A DNA stretch of 47,925 nt from NCBI GenBank assembly GCA_019348355.1, contig JAHWJP010000007.1, positions 1-47,925 of the forward strand, in the 5' to 3' direction. Positions 115 through 41,888 of the stretch are shown here, one piece after another (within the stretch, counting starts at the first letter, position 1; each line of letters starts with the position of its first letter). The notes beneath the pieces were generated by a model that worked only from the letters and a program-made list of their open reading frames with translations, did not search any database and was not told the DNA's origin. Source of the DNA: Actinomycetota bacterium. Its GTDB lineage: Bacteria; Actinomycetota; Actinomycetes; Mycobacteriales; SCTD01. A program made the translations under genes and the position numbers.

Positions 115-202
115 GGCTGATGATCTTTCTCGCGGTGGCCTGCTGGGGAACACGCCCCGGCGATTCCCCCAGCAAACCAGCGCAGGCGCGAGAGGTGGCC
201 CC
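115..202 (+). repeat. Palindromic element B, copy 1
   Basis: This 88-bp segment is repeated in inverted orientation at 11009-11096 with only two mismatches, and a diverged copy is at 10379-10441. It is an imperfect palindrome: TGCTGGGG pairs with CCCCAGCA around an 18-base loop that contains CGCC-CC-GGCG, and the stem continues outward with GCGgTGG / CCAgCGC and CTCGCG / CGCGAG. It lies between the stop at 39 and yceI. No ORF with protein-like character is present. It could act as a terminator of the upstream gene or be a non-autonomous repeat. Confidence 0.8.
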
Positions 203-886: not shown

Positions 887-902
887 CCCCAGTGTCCACC
901 TC

Positions 903-964
903 TCCCTGATCACCTGGCGCCGGCAAGCCCGTGTGGCCAACTCTTCTCGCCAGGTGATCAGGGA
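903..964. repeat. Palindromic element A, copy 1 (bidirectional terminator-like)
   Basis: A perfect 17-bp inverted repeat: TCCCTGATCACCTGGCG at 903-919 and its reverse complement at 948-964, with a 28-base loop. It lies between the convergent YceI and heme A synthase genes. The stop codon of heme A synthase (TGA, complement of 958-960) is inside the right arm. Related copies are at 21763-21831 and 22944-23012. Shared loop bases (a GCCC block) show this is a dispersed element and not just a chance hairpin. No U-run follows, as is usual for actinobacterial hairpin terminators. Confidence 0.85.
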
Positions 965-1923
965 GGGCCGGACGCGGCGGCGCTCGCCACCCGAGCTGGG
1001 ATCGCCGTCTGGTCGTCGGTAGGCACCGTCCTGAGCTGAGCGGCTGGGCCTCGGTCCCGGAGGGCGAGCACCGCCTGGACGGCGGCAATCTGCACGAGGC
1101 ACGCGCCGAGCAGGTGCAGTCCCACCAGCAGGACCGGCAGGTCGGTGACGTACTGCCCGACGCCGAGCGCCCCCTGTGCCAACTCCACGCCGAGCAGCAC
1201 GCCCGTGGCGCGGACCGCGGAAGAGGGTGCGCCGCCCCTGCGCAGGCAGATGTAGAGGGCCACCGTCAGCCCGATCAGCAGCACCACGAGGTTGCCGTGC
1301 AGCCGGCTGACCAGCTCGGGGTCCAGCCCGGTGCGTCCGGCCGCCGGGTCGCCCGAGTGCGGGCCGCTGCCGGTGACGACGGTGCCCGCCACGAGCGTCG
1401 CGGCGACGAGCACCAGCACCCCGACGGCGAGGCGTCGCACCGGCTCGCCGACCAGCGGCCGCGCCGGCAGGTCGCCCTCCCGGGCGCGCCGGTGCAGCCC
1501 GACGGCCAGCGCGATCAGCACCATCGACAGCAGGAAGTGGGCCATCACCGACCAGGGGTTGAGCCCGGTCAGGACGGTGACCCCGCCGAGCAGGGCCTGC
1601 GCCGGAATCCCCACGAAGACCAGACTGGCGAGCAGTCGCATGCCGGGGCGTACCGGGCGCTGTCGCCACACCGCGACCAGGCAGGCCAGCACGACGGCGG
1701 TCAGCGCGAAGGTCAGCAGCCGGTTGCCGAACTCGATGACGCCGTGCACGGCGTACTCCGGGGTGGGGGTGTAAGTCGTGGTCGTGCAGCGCGGCCAGGT
1801 GGGGCAGCCGAGCCCGGAGGCGGTCAGGCGTACGGCGCCGCCGGTGACCACGATCGCGCTGTTGGCGACGATGCTCGCCAGTGCCAGCCGGCGCACGGTG
1901 CGCGGGGTCGGCCGGCGGAGCAT
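958..1923 (-). CDS. ctaA: Heme A synthase (COX15/CtaA family)
   Basis: Heme A synthase oxidises the C8 methyl of heme O to a formyl group, giving heme A for cytochrome aa3 oxidase in the plasma membrane. The 321-residue protein has about eight hydrophobic segments. An external loop carries the cysteine pair C40 and C46 (GCPTWPRC), and the family histidines are visible: H60 in the motif VHGVIEFGNRLL, one in MAHFLL, one in SRLHGN and one in GLHLLGA. Length is normal. The start is ATG at 1923. The last codons (SGPP) and the TGA lie inside palindromic element A. Forty-two bases separate it from the exporter permease that precedes it on the same strand. Confidence 0.93.
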   Translation of the reverse strand: MLRRPTPRTVRRLALASIVANSAIVVTGGAVRLTASGLGCPTWPRCTTTTYTPTPEYAVHGVIEFGNRLLTFALTAVVLACLVAVWRQRPVRPGMRLLASLVFVGIPAQALLGGVTVLTGLNPWSVMAHFLLSMVLIALAVGLHRRAREGDLPARPLVGEPVRRLAVGVLVLVAATLVAGTVVTGSGPHSGDPAAGRTGLDPELVSRLHGNLVVLLIGLTVALYICLRRGGAPSSAVRATGVLLGVELAQGALGVGQYVTDLPVLLVGLHLLGACLVQIAAVQAVLALRDRGPAAQLRTVPTDDQTAIPARVASAAASGPP

Positions 1924-3667: not shown

Positions 3668-3745
3668 CCACCTCGCGCTGATCTTCGTCATCGTGCGGCC
3701 GACACGCCGTTCCGAGCCGCCATACGGCGAAGATCGGCGAGGTGG
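3668..3745. repeat. Long inverted repeat in the sufR / ABC exporter divergent region
   Basis: CCACCTCGCGCTGATCTTCG at 3668-3687 pairs with CGAAGATCGGCGAGGTGG at 3728-3745. This is an 18-bp stem with one two-base bulge and a 40-base loop. It is built like elements A and C, with a GATC core and arms of about 20 bp, but the sequence differs. It lies between two divergently transcribed genes, so a terminator role is unlikely. It could be an operator, an RNA leader or another repeat family. Confidence 0.75.
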
Positions 3746-10378: not shown

Positions 10379-10441
10379 GCCTTGCGGTGATCTGGTGGGC
10401 GAGGCGCCGGCGTGTCGCGCCCAGCAGGCCGCCGCAAGGGC
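10379..10441. repeat. Palindromic element B, copy 3 (diverged), probable suf operon terminator
   Basis: A hairpin of about 24 bp with a few mismatches begins 13 bases after the sufT stop. CCTTGCGG near 10380 pairs with CCGCAAGG near 10432, and inside it TGGGCG pairs with CGCCCA around a loop with GCGCCGGCGTG. The right half, read on the minus strand (CTTGCGG, then CGGCCTGCTGGG), matches the left arm of element B copies 1 and 2. By position it would terminate the suf operon. Confidence 0.7.
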
Positions 10442-11008: not shown

Positions 11009-11096
11009 GGGGCCACCTCTCCCGCCTGCGCTGGTTTGCTGGGGGAATCGCCGGGGCGTGTTCCCCAGCAGGCCACCGCAAGAAAGATCATCAGCC
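11009..11096 (-). repeat. Palindromic element B, copy 2
   Basis: The inverted copy of 115-202, with two mismatches in 88 bases, including the same TGCTGGGG / CCCCAGCA stem and CGCCCCGGCG loop. It lies downstream of the metallopeptidase gene (minus strand) and upstream of the decayed DUF559 gene. Such identity between copies 11 kb apart, outside any gene, indicates recent duplication or strong selection on the sequence. Confidence 0.85.
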
Positions 11097-14384: not shown

Positions 14385-14416
14385 GTCGCGGGTGCCGACC
14401 ACCACCTGCGCGCGCG

Positions 14417-14475
14417 ACTTCCCCTGCGGGATGGCACGTCTGCGCCCCCTGTCGGTGTCGTTTGGCAGGGGAAGT
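14417..14475. terminator. Hairpin between the convergent ABC-F and iron-importer genes
   Basis: ACTTCCCCTGC at 14417-14427 pairs perfectly with GCAGGGGAAGT at 14465-14475 around a 37-base loop. It lies between the stop of the ABC-F gene (14384) and the end of the importer operon (14511). It probably terminates both. The sequence is unrelated to elements A-C. Confidence 0.6.
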
Positions 14476-14510
14476 GCCGGGGTGGGGCGGGGACCAAGGG
14501 GCGCCCGACC

Positions 14511-19837: not shown

Positions 19838-21772
19838 ATGGAGAGCTACGGCTCGCACTCCATGATGGGCCGGCACTCCATGATGCGGTCGTTCGGCCGC
19901 GACCCGTCGGTGACCGACGTGCAGCTCGCGCCCGGGACGGGTCGCCGCATCGTGCGGTTCGCCGCACCGTACAAGCGTGATCTGTCGGTCTTCCTCGCGC
20001 TGATCGTCCTCGCGGCGTTCGCGGCCGTGCTGAACCCGCTGATCTTCAAAGTCATCATCGACGACGGCATCGGGACGAACCCGCCGGCGACCGGTGACCC
20101 CGGGCTGGTCATCTCGCTGGCGCTGCTCGTCGCCGGGCTCGCACTGTTCGAGGCGGTGCTGAAGCTGTGGCAGAAGTGGTGCTCCGCGCGCATCGGCGAG
20201 GGCCTGATCTACGACATGCGCTCGCAGGTCTACGCCCACATCTCGCGGATGCCGATCGCCTTCTTCACCCGTACGCAGACCGGCGCGCTCATCAGCCGGA
20301 TCAACAACGACGTGATGGGCGCGCAGTCGGCGTTCACCGGCACGCTGTCCGGCGTCGTCAGCAACGTCATCGGGGTGGTGTTGACGCTGATCGCCATGGC
20401 GATCCTGTCGTGGCAGATCACCCTGCTCTCACTCGTGCTGCTACCGGTGTTCATCGTCCCGGCCAAGCTGATCGGCACCAGGCTGCAGGCGCTGACCCGC
20501 GAGAGCTACTCCCTCGACGCCCAGATGACCAACGAGATGACCGAGCGCTTCAACATCTCGGGGGCGCTGCTGGTCAAGCTGTTCGGCCGGCCGTCGGTCG
20601 ATGCGGCCTCCTTCCGGGACAAGGCGGGTCGGGTCCGTGACATCGGGATCACCCGGGCGATGTACGGCGCGGTGTTCTTCGTCTCGCTCACCACCGTCGC
20701 GGCGCTGGCGACCGCGATGGTCTACGGGGTGGGTGGTGTCCTCGCGGCGTCCGGCTCGCTCGGCGTCGGCACTGTGGTGGCGCTCGCGGCGTACCTCACC
20801 CGGCTCTACGGTCCACTGACCGCGCTGTCGAACGTCCGGGTCGACGTGATGACCGCGCTGGTCAGCTTCGAGCGGGTCTTCGAGGTGCTCGACCTCGAGC
20901 CGATGGTCGTCGAACAGACAGAGGCGGTCGAGCTGCCGCGCGGCGCGACCTCGGTGGAGCTCGACGCGGTCTCGTTCGGCTATCCGACGGCCGAGCAGGT
21001 GTCACTCGCCTCGCTCGAGACCGTCGAGGTCCTGGAGTCGACCCCGTCATCACAGGTGCTGCACCAGGTGAGCCTGCGGGTCGAGCCCGGTTCGCTGGTG
21101 GCGCTGGTGGGGCCGTCGGGCGCCGGCAAGACGACGATCGGTCAGCTCGTCACCCGGATGTACGACGTCGACTCCGGTGCCGTGCTGATCGGCGGGCACG
21201 ACGTCCGCACCGTGACCATGCAGTCGCTCCGCGACGCCGTCGGCGTCGTCACCCAGGACGCCCACATGTTCCACGACACGATCCGCGCCAACCTGCACTA
21301 CGCCGATGCGCGCGCCACCGACGAGCGGCTCTGGGAGGTGCTCGAGGCAGCGCAGGTCGCCGGCCTCGTCCGGTCGCTGCCGGACGGTCTGGACACCCTG
21401 GTCGGCGACCGCGGCTACCGGCTGTCCGGTGGCGAGAAGCAGCGCATCGCGATCGCCCGGCTGCTGCTCAAGGCCCCCGGGGTGGTGATCCTCGACGAGG
21501 CGACGGCCCACCTCGACTCGGAGTCCGAGGCCGCGGTGCAGCGGGCGTTGTCGACCGCGCTGGCGGGGCGTACGTCCCTCGTCATCGCGCACCGGCTCTC
21601 GACCGTGCGGGACGCCGACCTCATCGTCGTCCTGCAGGACGGGCGGGTGGTCGAGCGCGGGCGGCACGAGCAGCTGCTCGAGCGGGGTGGGCTCTACGCG
21701 GAGCTCTACCGCACCCAGTTCGAGAGCCAGGCGCAGGTCGCGGCTGTCGCGGCGGCCTCTGGCCCTCCCTGA
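19838..21772 (+). CDS. ABC exporter (fused membrane and ATPase domains)
   Basis: A 644-residue half-transporter: six TM segments in residues 45-330, then an ATPase with Walker A GPSGAGKTT, signature LSGGEKQR, Walker B VILDEATAHLD and H-loop AHRLST. It probably exports a hydrophobic compound or drug as a homodimer; the substrate is unknown. The N-terminus holds a duplicated HSMM(G)R motif, and the ATG at 19838 after GGAG is the first plausible start. An insert of about 20 residues sits between FGYP and the Walker A strand, as I recall from actinobacterial relatives. The last codons (SGPP) and TGA lie inside palindromic element A. Confidence 0.92.
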   Translation: MESYGSHSMMGRHSMMRSFGRDPSVTDVQLAPGTGRRIVRFAAPYKRDLSVFLALIVLAAFAAVLNPLIFKVIIDDGIGTNPPATGDPGLVISLALLVAGLALFEAVLKLWQKWCSARIGEGLIYDMRSQVYAHISRMPIAFFTRTQTGALISRINNDVMGAQSAFTGTLSGVVSNVIGVVLTLIAMAILSWQITLLSLVLLPVFIVPAKLIGTRLQALTRESYSLDAQMTNEMTERFNISGALLVKLFGRPSVDAASFRDKAGRVRDIGITRAMYGAVFFVSLTTVAALATAMVYGVGGVLAASGSLGVGTVVALAAYLTRLYGPLTALSNVRVDVMTALVSFERVFEVLDLEPMVVEQTEAVELPRGATSVELDAVSFGYPTAEQVSLASLETVEVLESTPSSQVLHQVSLRVEPGSLVALVGPSGAGKTTIGQLVTRMYDVDSGAVLIGGHDVRTVTMQSLRDAVGVVTQDAHMFHDTIRANLHYADARATDERLWEVLEAAQVAGLVRSLPDGLDTLVGDRGYRLSGGEKQRIAIARLLLKAPGVVILDEATAHLDSESEAAVQRALSTALAGRTSLVIAHRLSTVRDADLIVVLQDGRVVERGRHEQLLERGGLYAELYRTQFESQAQVAAVAAASGPP

Positions 21773-21831
21773 TCACCTGGCACGATTTTGCCCCTCCAGG
21801 CGGCCATTTCGCGCCAGCTGATCAGGCAGGG
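21763..21831. repeat. Palindromic element A, copy 2
   Basis: CCCTCCCTGATCACCTGGC at 21763-21781 is identical to the arm of the other copies; the right arm at 21811-21831 is its reverse complement with two mismatches. It spans the end of the ABC exporter gene, whose stop codon (TGA at 21770-21772) is inside the left arm, and the convergent SUFU gene ends 26 bases later. A run of nine G (21848-21856) follows just before the SUFU stop. Confidence 0.83.
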
Positions 21832-21856
21832 GTGTCGGGGTGTCGGCGGGGGGGGG

Positions 21857-22906
21857 TCAGCCGACGGACTTGATGACGTTGCCCTGCTGGTCGCGTACGG
21901 CGGTGCGCTCCACCTGGAACAGGACGTCGGGCAGCCCGGGCACTTCGTAGCGCCCGGCGACCGGGCGTAGTGATGCCCCGATGGACTCAGCCTGCTCGGC
22001 AGTGACGGTCAGCGTCCAGCCACTGTCCGATCGGGTGAGGCCGGCACTCGAGCCGGGGAGGAAGGTCAGCATCTTCTCCTTGGTCATGAGGGCGAACGGC
22101 CGGCCGAAGCCGATCCGCAGCGGCAGCACCAGACACAGGCTGTCGACCACGGTCGCCGGCAGGGTCACGAAGGCCGGTCGGCGCGGGAACCGCTTGGCGG
22201 CGCGTACGGTCAACGCGCTGATCTGCAATGCGCCCAGTGAGGAGCCGTCCCGGTTGCGGCCCTCGACGATGGCCGAATCGATGTCGGGATCGGTGAGCAG
22301 TGAGCGGCGGTCCAGGTCGGTGACGAGCAGCGGCAGGTGCCGGGACAGCACCGGTCGCATGGCCTGGGCGTCCCAGGTGCGGATCGCGGCCCGCTCGTCC
22401 TGGGTGACCCCGACGACCTGGAGGAACCGCACGTGCCCGAACGGTCCATAAACGGGGCGCAGCTCGGGCTCCTCGTAGAAGATCACCGCCCGGATCTGCG
22501 TGTCCGAGCCCTCGAGGATCGGGCCGAACAGGTCCATCGAGTGTCCCGGTGCGAGGACGTTGTCGGTCTCGAAGACGTAGCGGGCGAGGTTCTGGAGCAC
22601 GTTGGCCATGAACACCGGGGGCTCGGCCTCGGCGCCTCGGCGTAGGCGAGCCGTCAACTCAAACCCGCGGCCGCTGGCGTGCAGGTTCTCGTTCTGCTTG
22701 GTGTAAAGCTCGGTGAGGCCGTAGGAGACGTAATGCCAGTGGTCCTGGCGGGCGTAGACCGAGATGCCGTCCAGCGGGTCCGGTCCGCCGTCACTCCAGC
22801 GCCGGACGGTCGCCCAGTGACACGCCGGCTCGGTGCCGCCGTAGACGGCGCTGAGCGCGGCGTCGATGGTGTGCCAACCCGGGGCGGTGTCGTCGTCGCT
22901 CGGCAC
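21857..22906 (-). CDS. Suppressor-of-fused (SUFU) domain protein
   Basis: A protein of about 349 residues with a SUFU domain: the opening GWHTIDAALSAVYGG, the segment YGLTELYTK, the core GRGFELTARLRR, and PVFMANVLQNLARYVFETDN are characteristic. SUFU is known as a Hedgehog-pathway regulator in animals; bacterial members are linked to polymorphic toxin immunity in comparative studies, but no toxin gene is present beside this one. The C-terminal part beyond about residue 200 looks unique to bacterial forms. GTG at 22906 is preferred over the ATG at 22957, because that ATG lies inside element A copy 3 and homology starts later. Confidence 0.85.
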   Translation of the reverse strand: MPSDDDTAPGWHTIDAALSAVYGGTEPACHWATVRRWSDGGPDPLDGISVYARQDHWHYVSYGLTELYTKQNENLHASGRGFELTARLRRGAEAEPPVFMANVLQNLARYVFETDNVLAPGHSMDLFGPILEGSDTQIRAVIFYEEPELRPVYGPFGHVRFLQVVGVTQDERAAIRTWDAQAMRPVLSRHLPLLVTDLDRRSLLTDPDIDSAIVEGRNRDGSSLGALQISALTVRAAKRFPRRPAFVTLPATVVDSLCLVLPLRIGFGRPFALMTKEKMLTFLPGSSAGLTRSDSGWTLTVTAEQAESIGASLRPVAGRYEVPGLPDVLFQVERTAVRDQQGNVIKSVG

Positions 22907-22943
22907 GGAACAGATTCTCTCGCACTCGACCCGGCCCCGCGGG

Positions 22944-23012
22944 CCCTCCCTGATCATGTGGCGCTGGAGATGCCCGATACGCAGAGAATTCTCGCCAGAT
23001 GATCAGGGAGGG
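22944..23012. repeat. Palindromic element A, copy 3
   Basis: Arms of 20 bp with one mismatch: CCCTCCCTGATCATGTGGCG at 22944-22963 and the partner at 22993-23012. The loop shares TGGCGC, GG and GCCCG spacing with copy 1. It lies between the small gene ending at 23147 and the SUFU start, both on the minus strand, so here it follows one gene and precedes the next. Confidence 0.85.
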
Positions 23013-23066
23013 AGCGCTAGCGCATCGAACTCCACCGGTGGGTCGAGTCACCGCCACCGCAGTGCT

Positions 23067-23135
23067 GATCCACCGCAGGATCGCCGACGTAGGAGCGATG
23101 CTTCCGCGCTGAGGACGGCGATGCTGCGGTTGATG
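23067..23135. repeat. Palindromic element C, copy 1
   Basis: Left arm GATCCACCGCAGGATCGCC (23067-23085) and right arm GGCGATGCTGCGGTTGATG (23117-23135) form an imperfect stem. The same arms, one base from perfect, occur at 40571-40639, and the intervening sequence is also related (a CGCTGAGG block before the right arm in both). It lies just downstream of the 56-residue gene. Confidence 0.8.
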
Positions 23136-23146
23136 TTCAGGAGGCC

Positions 23147-23317
23147 TCAGCCGGCGCCACCGGGCGAGCCGCCGCCGACCCCGCCGAGCTCCTGGTCGTC
23201 GGTGAAGGCTGCGGGGTCGCTGGTCGCCGGGAGTTCTGCGGCCTCCACATCCTCGGGAGTCACCTCTACGTCGGTGCCGTTCTGGACCCGCGGGACATCG
23301 CGCTGTGGCTCGGACAT
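23147..23317 (-). CDS. Small acidic hypothetical protein (56 residues)
   Basis: ATG at 23317, preceded by GGGGGA five bases upstream, opens a 56-codon frame. The product is acidic and disordered: MSEPQRDVPRVQNG, then a stretch rich in E, D, T and V, ending in a glycine-rich tail. It has the look of a genuine small actinobacterial protein: protein-like codon use, a good ribosome binding site and no overlap with another gene. I do not recognise it. It is divergent from the PhoD-like phosphatase and may share its promoter region (23318-23450). Confidence 0.6.
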   Translation of the reverse strand: MSEPQRDVPRVQNGTDVEVTPEDVEAAELPATSDPAAFTDDQELGGVGGGSPGGAG

Positions 23318-23450
23318 GACGTCCCCCTACCCGGCGACTGCGGACTGCAACGGCGAAGCTTCCGCCAGGCAGACCTCGCCCAGCCGGCGCCCCGTGCGAG
23401 CGGGGTTGCGCAGCCGGGGGACGATGAGCGCAACCCGAAGGAGGCCACGC

Positions 23451-25112: not shown

Positions 25113-25196
25113 CCGGCTGGCCTCCCCGCCCTCTTTGATTCACGCCGGAGTTCGGCGCTTTCGCCGGGTCGAGAACCCTCTGAAGTCCCGCGTTGA

Positions 25197-25679
25197 TCAG
25201 CTGGAGGGGGCCTCGCCGACCTGCTGCTGCAGGTAGAGCTGGTCGCCGAGGGTCTCGATCAGCGACAGCTGCGTCTCCAGATAGCCCACGTGCTCCTCCT
25301 CCGAGCTCAGGATCGACTCGAACAGCAGCCGGGTGACGGTGTCCCCGGCGTCTCGGCAGACATCGATGCCCCGGTGCAGGCTGGCCATCGCCCGGACCTC
25401 GACGTCCAGGTCGGCGCTGAGCTGCTCGCGCACCCGCTCGCCGATCGACAGCGGGTTCAGCCGCTGCAGGTTGGGGTGGCCCTCGAGGAACAGGATGCGG
25501 TGGATGAGCAGGTCGGCATGCTTCATCTCGTCGATCGACTCGGCGTAGGTGTAGTCGGCGAGCTTGGTGAAGCCCCAGTTCCGCTGCATCGCGGCGTGCA
25601 GGTAGTACTGGTTGACCGCCGTGAGCTCGTTGGTCAGGACCTCGTTGAGGACCTCGAGAACCGCCTCGTTGCCATGCAT
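25197..25679 (-). CDS. bfr: Bacterioferritin
   Basis: A 160-residue bacterioferritin, the heme-containing iron-storage protein that assembles as a 24-mer. All ferroxidase ligands are in register: E18, E51, H54, E94, E127 and H130, with Y25 nearby. M52 is the heme-binding methionine. The start is ATG at 25679. It follows the ferredoxin gene by 33 bases, and the operon begins at the IdeR-like box at 26139-26157, so induction by iron excess or repression release by the DtxR/IdeR regulator is expected. Confidence 0.97.
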   Translation of the reverse strand: MHGNEAVLEVLNEVLTNELTAVNQYYLHAAMQRNWGFTKLADYTYAESIDEMKHADLLIHRILFLEGHPNLQRLNPLSIGERVREQLSADLDVEVRAMASLHRGIDVCRDAGDTVTRLLFESILSSEEEHVGYLETQLSLIETLGDQLYLQQQVGEAPSS

Positions 25680-40515: not shown

Positions 40516-40585
40516 CGGCTTCGCCCTCCTGTGAAGATCATCCGCAGGACCGGCTTCACCCTCCTGTGAAGATCATCCGCAGGAT
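40516..40585 (+). repeat. 35-bp direct tandem repeat
   Basis: The unit beginning CGGCTTC(G/A)CCCTCCTGTG and ending GATCATCCGCAGGA occurs at 40516-40550 and again at 40551-40585, with one mismatch at the start. The second copy supplies the left arm of element C copy 2, so the arm has been duplicated. No gene lies here. Confidence 0.8.
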
Positions 40586-40639
40586 CGCCGTCCTAGGTGG
40601 GACCGCGCGTCGCTGAGGGCGGCGATGCTGCGGATGATC
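40571..40639. repeat. Palindromic element C, copy 2
   Basis: GATCATCCGCAGGATCGCC at 40571-40589 pairs with GGCGATGCTGCGGATGATC at 40621-40639 with one mismatch. It lies between the convergent DUF2237 and GH3 genes. The stop codon of the GH3 gene (TGA, complement of 40638-40640) is at the tip of the right arm. The other copy is at 23067-23135. Confidence 0.83.
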
Positions 40640-41888
40640 AACGGGGGCTCGGAGTCGGGGTGGCGGTGGCCCGCGGGGTGGCGGTGGCCCGCGGGGTGGC
40701 GGTGGCCCGCGGGGAGGGAGTGCTGGCCGCAGCTGGAGCCGACGTCAGCTTCGGCAGCGACACGGGCACGCAGGACATGGCCATCGGGTCGCCACCCGCA
40801 AGGGCCGTCACCCGGGCCGAGGCTTCGTTCAACCGGTCCTCGGGCAGCCGTCCGGACCGGACTGCCTCGACGAGGGCGTTGGTCATGCGCTTCGCCTGAT
40901 TCCCGTCGGTCGTCAGGACCGCGTCGGAGCCCGCCCCCACGGCCTGCACTGCCGACTCAGGGAAGTCCCAGCGTGGATAGATGGCGCCCATGCCGACACT
41001 GTCGGTGATCGCCACCCCGGAGAACCCCATCTTCCGCAGCAGCGCGTAGGCCTGAGGATTCATCGACGCGGGCAGGCCCACACCCAGGGCGCTGTAGGAG
41101 AGGTGGTTGAGCATGATGACGGGCGCGCCCGCATCGATGGCCCGTTGGAAGGGCATCAGGTCGGTGCTCTCGAGCTCTTCGACCGTCGCGTCCACCACGT
41201 CGGTCACCGCGTGGGTGTCCCTGGTCGATCTGCCCTGGCCCGGGAAGTGCTTGACCGTCGGTGTGACGCCGCCGTCGAGCAGTCCGGCCGAGAAGGCCAG
41301 GCCGTACTCCGCGGCACGCTCGGGATCGACGCTGAACGAGCGGTCGCCGATGATCCCTCCGGAGGGGCCGTCGTCCAGATCGAGCACCGGGGCCAGATTG
41401 AGCGTGATGCCTGTGTCGGCCAGCTGCGACCCGATGTCGGCGGCGAAGGCGCGGACCTGCGCGGAGGTCCGCTGCCGCGCGAGGCGCCGAGGGGAGGGTC
41501 CGGCGCCGACGATCTCCCGGGTCACGGCAACCCGTCCGGACTCCTCGTCGGTCGAGACCAGCAGCGGCCGATCTGCCCGCGCCCGCAGGCCGCTGACCAA
41601 GGCGGTGAGCTGCGCCTCGGACCTGACGTTGGGCTCGGAGATGAACAGGCCGCCGACCCCGAGATCGACGACGAACTGGCCGAGGACGTCGCTGGCTCTG
41701 GTCACATGTGGCAGGCCGACGATCAGGACCGACGCCGCTCGGCGCTCCAGCGGGGCGGGCTGGCAGGACGGCGTCGGTGCGGCGGCGGTGGCCGGGGAGG
41801 CCGGCGGGGTGGTCGAGCTGCAGGCCGCGAGCAGGGCCGCGCCTGCGGCGAGTCCGGCGCCCGTACGGCGGAATCGGTCGGCGGGCAC
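40638..41888 (-). CDS. Glycoside hydrolase family 3 lipoprotein (beta-N-acetylhexosaminidase-like)
   Basis: A 416-residue lipoprotein, lipobox ALLAAC with C23 and a threonine/proline-rich linker. The GH3 catalytic domain shows LVSTDEESGRV, LNLAPVLDLDD, the NagZ-type loop VKHFPGQGRSTRDTHAV with the Asp-His pair, and the nucleophile Asp in AITDSVGMGAI. The loop has Q where H is common (KHFPGHG). It probably removes N-acetylglucosamine from peptidoglycan fragments at the cell surface. The last 45 residues are low-complexity, with PRATAT three times, encoded by an 18-bp tandem at 40659-40712. The start is ATG at 41888. Confidence 0.92.
   Translation of the reverse strand: MPADRFRRTGAGLAAGAALLAACSSTTPPASPATAAAPTPSCQPAPLERRAASVLIVGLPHVTRASDVLGQFVVDLGVGGLFISEPNVRSEAQLTALVSGLRARADRPLLVSTDEESGRVAVTREIVGAGPSPRRLARQRTSAQVRAFAADIGSQLADTGITLNLAPVLDLDDGPSGGIIGDRSFSVDPERAAEYGLAFSAGLLDGGVTPTVKHFPGQGRSTRDTHAVTDVVDATVEELESTDLMPFQRAIDAGAPVIMLNHLSYSALGVGLPASMNPQAYALLRKMGFSGVAITDSVGMGAIYPRWDFPESAVQAVGAGSDAVLTTDGNQAKRMTNALVEAVRSGRLPEDRLNEASARVTALAGGDPMAMSCVPVSLPKLTSAPAAASTPSPRATATPRATATPRATATPTPSPR
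40659..40712 (-). repeat. 18-bp tandem repeat within the GH3 gene
   Basis: Three near-perfect copies of an 18-base unit (plus strand GGGGTGGCGGTGGCCCGC) encode three PRATAT hexapeptides at the C-terminus of the GH3 lipoprotein. Because the unit is a multiple of three, changes in copy number keep the frame; the repeat may vary between strains. Confidence 0.85.

Follow-up and report, generated by a model that had tools for sequence, protein, structure and literature searches.

Results

The stretch of DNA analyzed here (the window) is an entire 47,925-bp contig, C131, of the host, a metagenome-assembled genome (MAG) of 2.97 Mb that is 88% complete. Three imperfect palindromes in the window, designated copies a, b, and c of family A, have CTCCCTGATCANNTGGCG arms and related loops in common (Table 1). 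The neighboring genes that were scanned encode YceI, CtaA, an ABC exporter, a SUFU protein, and a PhoD-like phosphatase, in agreement with the initial annotation, made from the letters of the window alone, that no transposase is near. The three-copy palindromic element described in that annotation is real. A search of the window for CTCCCTGATCACCTGGC with up to 3 mismatches returns six sites, which are exactly the six arms of copies a–c, whereas dinucleotide shuffles of the window give a chance expectation of 0.28 sites. The 20-mer originally given for the arms, CCCTCCCTGATCACCTGGCG, is exact in the left arm of copy b only; copies a and c carry close variants. Strong palindromes (score of at least 13, loop of at most 60) number 7 in the window versus 0.375 per shuffle, and shuffled sequence thus yields almost none rather than an equal frequency. 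RNA folding of the three copies gives energies of -48.5 to -50.9 kcal/mol, with z values of -4.2 to -7.0, which correspond to very stable hairpins.

Table 1. Palindromic elements and embedded stop codons in the window (E values are against covariance model R1 or, for copies b and c, the model)
Feature	Position	Strand	Anatomy	Setting	E value
Family A, copy a	902..965	.	Arms 902-919 and 948-965, 18 bp, perfect; loop 28 nt	Gap between convergent yceI (+) and ctaA (-)	5.8e-19
TGA, right arm of copy a	958..960	-	Stop codon of ctaA; C-terminus ...AAASGPP*
Family A, copy b	21763..21831	.	23-bp arms, 3 mismatches	Convergent gap, ABC exporter (+) and SUFU gene (-)	1.2e-19
TGA, left arm of copy b	21770..21772	+	Stop codon of ABC exporter; GGC CCT CCC TGA = GPP*
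Family A, copy c	22944..23012	.	20-bp arms, 1 mismatch	Divergent gap, upstream of SUFU gene	5.2e-22
Family B	40571..40639	.	GATCATCCGCAGGATCGCC arms; related class
Family B, decayed copy	23068..23134	.		55 bp from copy c
Family C	125..189	.	Palindrome
Family C	10380..10440	.	Loop with GGCGTGTC/GACACGCC
Family C	11024..11086	.	Palindrome
Family G	14414..14477	.	CACTTCCCCTGC arms	Convergent gap
Family H	3674..3740	.	GATCTTCGCC arms, GACACGCC loop
Family I	25134..25201	.	TTGATCAACGCCG-type arms	Convergent gap

Family A was counted genome-wide by exact arm search and with a covariance model trained on nine copies. Rather than only the three copies first noticed, the host has 10 full copies, of which the tenth (contig C239) is decayed, and single arms are found at C120 and C145. 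The sister species G007 (99% complete), which is very probably the MAG "Frankiales bacterium RYN_177", has nine diverged copies with CCCTCCCTGATCGTGTGGCG / CGCCACACGATCAGGGACGG arms. Within the genus, family A is confined to these two genomes. The other 22 genomes of the taxonomic family give zero or one weak match (three with one each, E 2e-4 to 7e-4). A scan of 84,980 species genomes recovers five stretches in RYN_177 and no multi-copy genome beyond the host and its sister; 15 single matches scattered among unrelated organisms were put down to chance. Two-mismatch arm matches outside hairpins were left uncounted because a reversed control pattern also gave 3. At the level of sequence, these counts establish the dispersal of the family.

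The distance from arm to arm is also nearly constant, at ~65 bp (65-70 bp) in nearly all host and G007 copies, and the loop sequences vary. In the host, mean pairwise identity is 0.88 for the arms and 0.375 for the loops, the latter compared with 0.265 (sd 0.014) after shuffling; in G007, the values are 0.91 and 0.438 (shuffled 0.291, sd 0.013). For the family overall, identity spans 0.88-0.92 in the arms and 0.38-0.44 in the loops. Because the loops are more alike than shuffles and the arms are ~90% alike, the loops are of common descent but have drifted, and the arms have been held. The relatedness of the loops claimed in the initial annotation is therefore upheld. Covariation is weak, with compensatory base changes in the stems only marginally above control. 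Seven of the 20 stem pairs are invariant, and mispairs are frequent in the variable columns of the core, where five of nine host copies have a G.G mismatch. Conserved arms with a mispairing core are explained as well, or better, by recognition of the arm sequence as by selection acting on pairing alone.

Orthologous sites in relatives were compared for the presence or absence of elements. At the copy b site, seven relatives are without the palindrome, and the ABC exporter there closes on its own stop codon. The host exporter instead reads into copy b and terminates inside the element. In G007, a copy lies directly 3' of a permease stop codon and upstream of the ctaA start; this site is empty in the host, G001, G002, G006, and G008, and in G005 it holds an unrelated hairpin containing TGATCA. 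The host also has a copy in the rplO-secY gap that G008 and G002 lack, and G005 has a different palindrome there. All four genomes compared retain the motif GGCTGTTACAGTCG before secY. The three copies missing from the corresponding sites of relatives look to have been gained by insertion; because the comparisons are between species, we infer gain over repeated loss by parsimony. The different palindromes that G005 has (L264, L130) at two sites with a family A copy in the host or G007, rplO-secY and upstream of ctaA, suggest that elements have settled in the same gaps more than once.

The SUFU-domain gene (window 21857-22906) has the ABC exporter on one side and the PhoD-like gene on the other. 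At this junction, it is present in G008 and was not seen in G001, G003, G004, G006, or G007. Since family A pairs flank this gene in the window and an AbiEi-like gene in G007, integron-like cassettes were considered and rejected. The flanking looks incidental because the SUFU gene of G008 is not accompanied by elements, and because a homologue of the small gene located between two family C elements occurs in G007, in which no family C copy was found. The AbiEi-like gene of G007 (L091:5135-6154), situated between two family A elements, is unmatched at the host and G008 junction.

The 652 kb of host sequence examined contain at least ten families (A-J) of palindromes 59-100 bp long, family A among them, a multiplicity that escaped the initial annotation, which described a single family. 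Each was counted on those 652 kb at E < 1e-4 and has 3 to 10 copies. Five others (B, C, G, H, and I) are also represented in the window. Relatives carry families as well: G001 has its own GATCATGCAGTTGTTG-arm family, members of E and H occur in G008, and B-like matches are found in G005. Two sequence features recur across families, although their enrichments are descriptive, as the families were collected by similarity and their copies are non-independent: TGATC is present in 39 of 52 elements and eight of ten families (106 occurrences versus 7.5 expected, 14-fold), and the octamer GACACGCC is present in 12 elements of families A, C, H, and J versus 0.18 expected. Twelve of the 18 intergenic occurrences of GACACGCC in the sample lie inside such elements, and its frequency in the palindrome loops of these four families, whose arms differ, is ~65x that of the rest of the sampled genome. 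Its positions include 10409 and 3701 of the window, L156:1261, L164:10174, L172:15504, L188:2295, and L099:1997. That a loop motif is common to families with different arms is notable.

The placement of elements relative to gene ends, raised as a check in the initial annotation, was examined for the 52 palindromes of all ten families in the same 652 kb, 46 of which have both neighbors called. Because gene calls are home-made codon-score predictions, some distances to stop codons are approximate. A gene 3' end lies within 50 bp of 32 of the 46 elements, compared with 8.6 (sd 2.7) for random intergenic placement, a number matched in none of 2000 random placement trials. Convergent gaps hold 15 of the 46 versus 5.6 expected (p = 0.0005). 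The exceptions in divergent gaps are copy c, the copy at C225, and one G007 copy. Elements also donate stop codons, as seen for ctaA (copy a), the ABC exporter (copy b), a gene on C239, and one G007 gene. The 3' preference of the class can reflect function, insertion preference, or tolerance, and the data separate none of these.

Discussion

Our preferred reading, held with moderate confidence, is that family A is a lineage-specific, non-coding palindrome of 65-70 bp that spreads by copying and settles mainly just downstream of genes. An enzyme acting in trans would copy the element, recognizing either the arm sequence (CTGATCA..TGGCG) or the folded hairpin. Once inserted, the long hairpin may end or stabilize transcripts that reach it from either side or from both. 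TGATCA, in which each strand contains TGA, would close reading frames that enter the element. Insertions beside gene 3' ends would be tolerated or favored, giving rise to the observed distribution. Mobility is supported by the dispersal of the copies, the common descent of their loops, and their presence or absence at orthologous sites, and a role at gene ends is supported by the strong excess of elements within 50 bp of 3' ends. The low copy number of family A for a selfish repeat counts against this reading, as do the negative search for PF01797 in nine genus genomes, the lack of a target-site duplication signal, the missing U-tract, the copies in divergent gaps, and compensatory changes that barely exceed control. 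The proposal of the initial annotation, a REP- or MITE-like family or else a terminator module, thus survives as a mixture, in which a strict REP fails and a strict MITE is not established. Judged from sequence, the family is a genuine lineage-restricted one whose palindromes may work like REPs and possibly as tail-less bidirectional terminators.

Most dispersed palindromes known in bacteria are REPs, and in Gram-negatives many of these are tied to a Y1 transposase. The likeness of family A to REPs is considerable, in that both are small, non-coding, imperfect palindromes that are dispersed, mostly intergenic, restricted to a species or genus, often near gene ends, and represented by several families per genome. 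REPs have stems of 5-13 bp, loops of 2-20 nt, and an unpaired GTAG or CGTC tag (PMC3733652), whereas the stems (18-23 bp) and loops (23-29 nt) of family A lie beyond these ranges. No GTAG or CGTC tag is conserved outside the stem in 19 aligned copies and their flanks, as judged by eye; there are ~10 copies; and a search for the Y1/RAYT transposase (PF01797) finds it in none of nine genus genomes, with 5 of 14 control genomes positive. By the features tested, family A is REP-like in behavior and is not a member of the GTAG/CGTC superfamilies.

The palindromes could also be ordinary factor-independent terminators without a U-tail, their arms alike by selection or occasional local copying and the DNA not mobile. 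High-GC bacterial terminators often lack a U-tract, and U-tract-less hairpin terminators are under discussion for mycobacteria and have been proposed for other high-GC actinobacteria. Such tail-less actinobacterial terminators are, like family A, long GC-rich hairpins just past stop codons and often between convergent genes. The hairpin strength and the enrichment at 3' ends and in convergent gaps favor this explanation. A canonical intrinsic terminator pairs its hairpin with a U-tract; a consensus scan finds no terminator at copy a, and no T-run flanks the 18 copies inspected. Rfam 15 gives no match in the window at gathering score and none up to E = 1 for positions 21400-23400. Several observations make the explanation rather unlikely, although it is the strongest of the alternatives. 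The loops are related by descent beyond chance, and the arms are conserved as sequence rather than through covariation, whereas a terminator needs no common sequence. Copies sit in divergent gaps, where a terminator is not expected. Finally, the arms and loops at different loci have a common ancestry, and elements are absent from the orthologous sites of sister species. The paired uptake sequences of Neisseria (DUS) and Haemophilus (USS) act as terminators and offer a related precedent, being conserved short sequences in inverted pairs at gene ends; they are very numerous and occur singly or paired, whereas family A comprises ~10 hairpins per genome.

MITEs and the RU, ERIC, BOX, and RUP elements resemble family A in being non-coding, inverted-repeat, and dispersed, and in being present or absent at orthologous sites, which for family A is observed between species. 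If family A were made of MITEs, its members would be shortened remnants of a DDE-type insertion sequence with the arms as terminal inverted repeats. The ends are inverted repeats, the body is short and non-coding, and the elements are dispersed and inserted at sites that are empty in relatives, all of which fit this origin. The elements are, however, shorter (~65 bp), and 65 bp with arms of 18-23 bp leaves almost no body. The target-site duplication signal is absent: direct repeats at the borders of 18 copies measure 3.50 compared with 3.475 for shuffled partners, with element borders uncertain by a few bases. In the incomplete host genome, no copy was seen in which family A arms enclose a transposase, none is obvious on inspection beside the solo arms at C120 and C145, and we know of no parental insertion sequence. 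A MITE origin is therefore improbable. A further proposal, that the palindromes are binding sites of a chromosome-organizing or regulatory protein with CTGATCANNTGGCG arms as paired sites, would suit the conservation of arm sequence without clear covariation, the mismatch-prone dinucleotide in the stem, and the 14-fold enrichment of TGATC in eight of ten families, but is very improbable given that family A has 10 copies only, that arms differ greatly between families, and that a spacing requirement leaves the related loops unexplained.

If family A is indeed a mobile palindrome that settles downstream of genes, genomes without a Y1 transposase can build a REP-like landscape, here in an uncultured actinobacterial genus with many species-specific families and turnover at 3' ends. 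With such genomes, one could examine whether high-GC bacteria draw terminators from selfish hairpins. More speculatively, the genus might carry a modular superfamily of mobile palindromes that exchange loops between arm families, are copied without a RAYT, and act as movable stop signals in both directions, a stop signal here comprising both a translation stop and a transcript end.

Local duplications accompany some of the palindromes. At C244, three left arms and two right arms were considered as a nested insertion, which was not used as proof of mobility because the 30-bp period in both arm series fits slippage or tandem duplication equally well. At the family B element at 40571, the left arm and flank are tandemly duplicated (~40 bp, window 40522-40595), resembling the arrays of arms with a 30-bp period at G000:C244:212-366; the duplication may have arisen by slippage at hairpins. 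An 18-bp tandem repeat (CGGGGTGGCGGTGGCCCG) at positions 40656-40722 of the window adjoins the same family B element.
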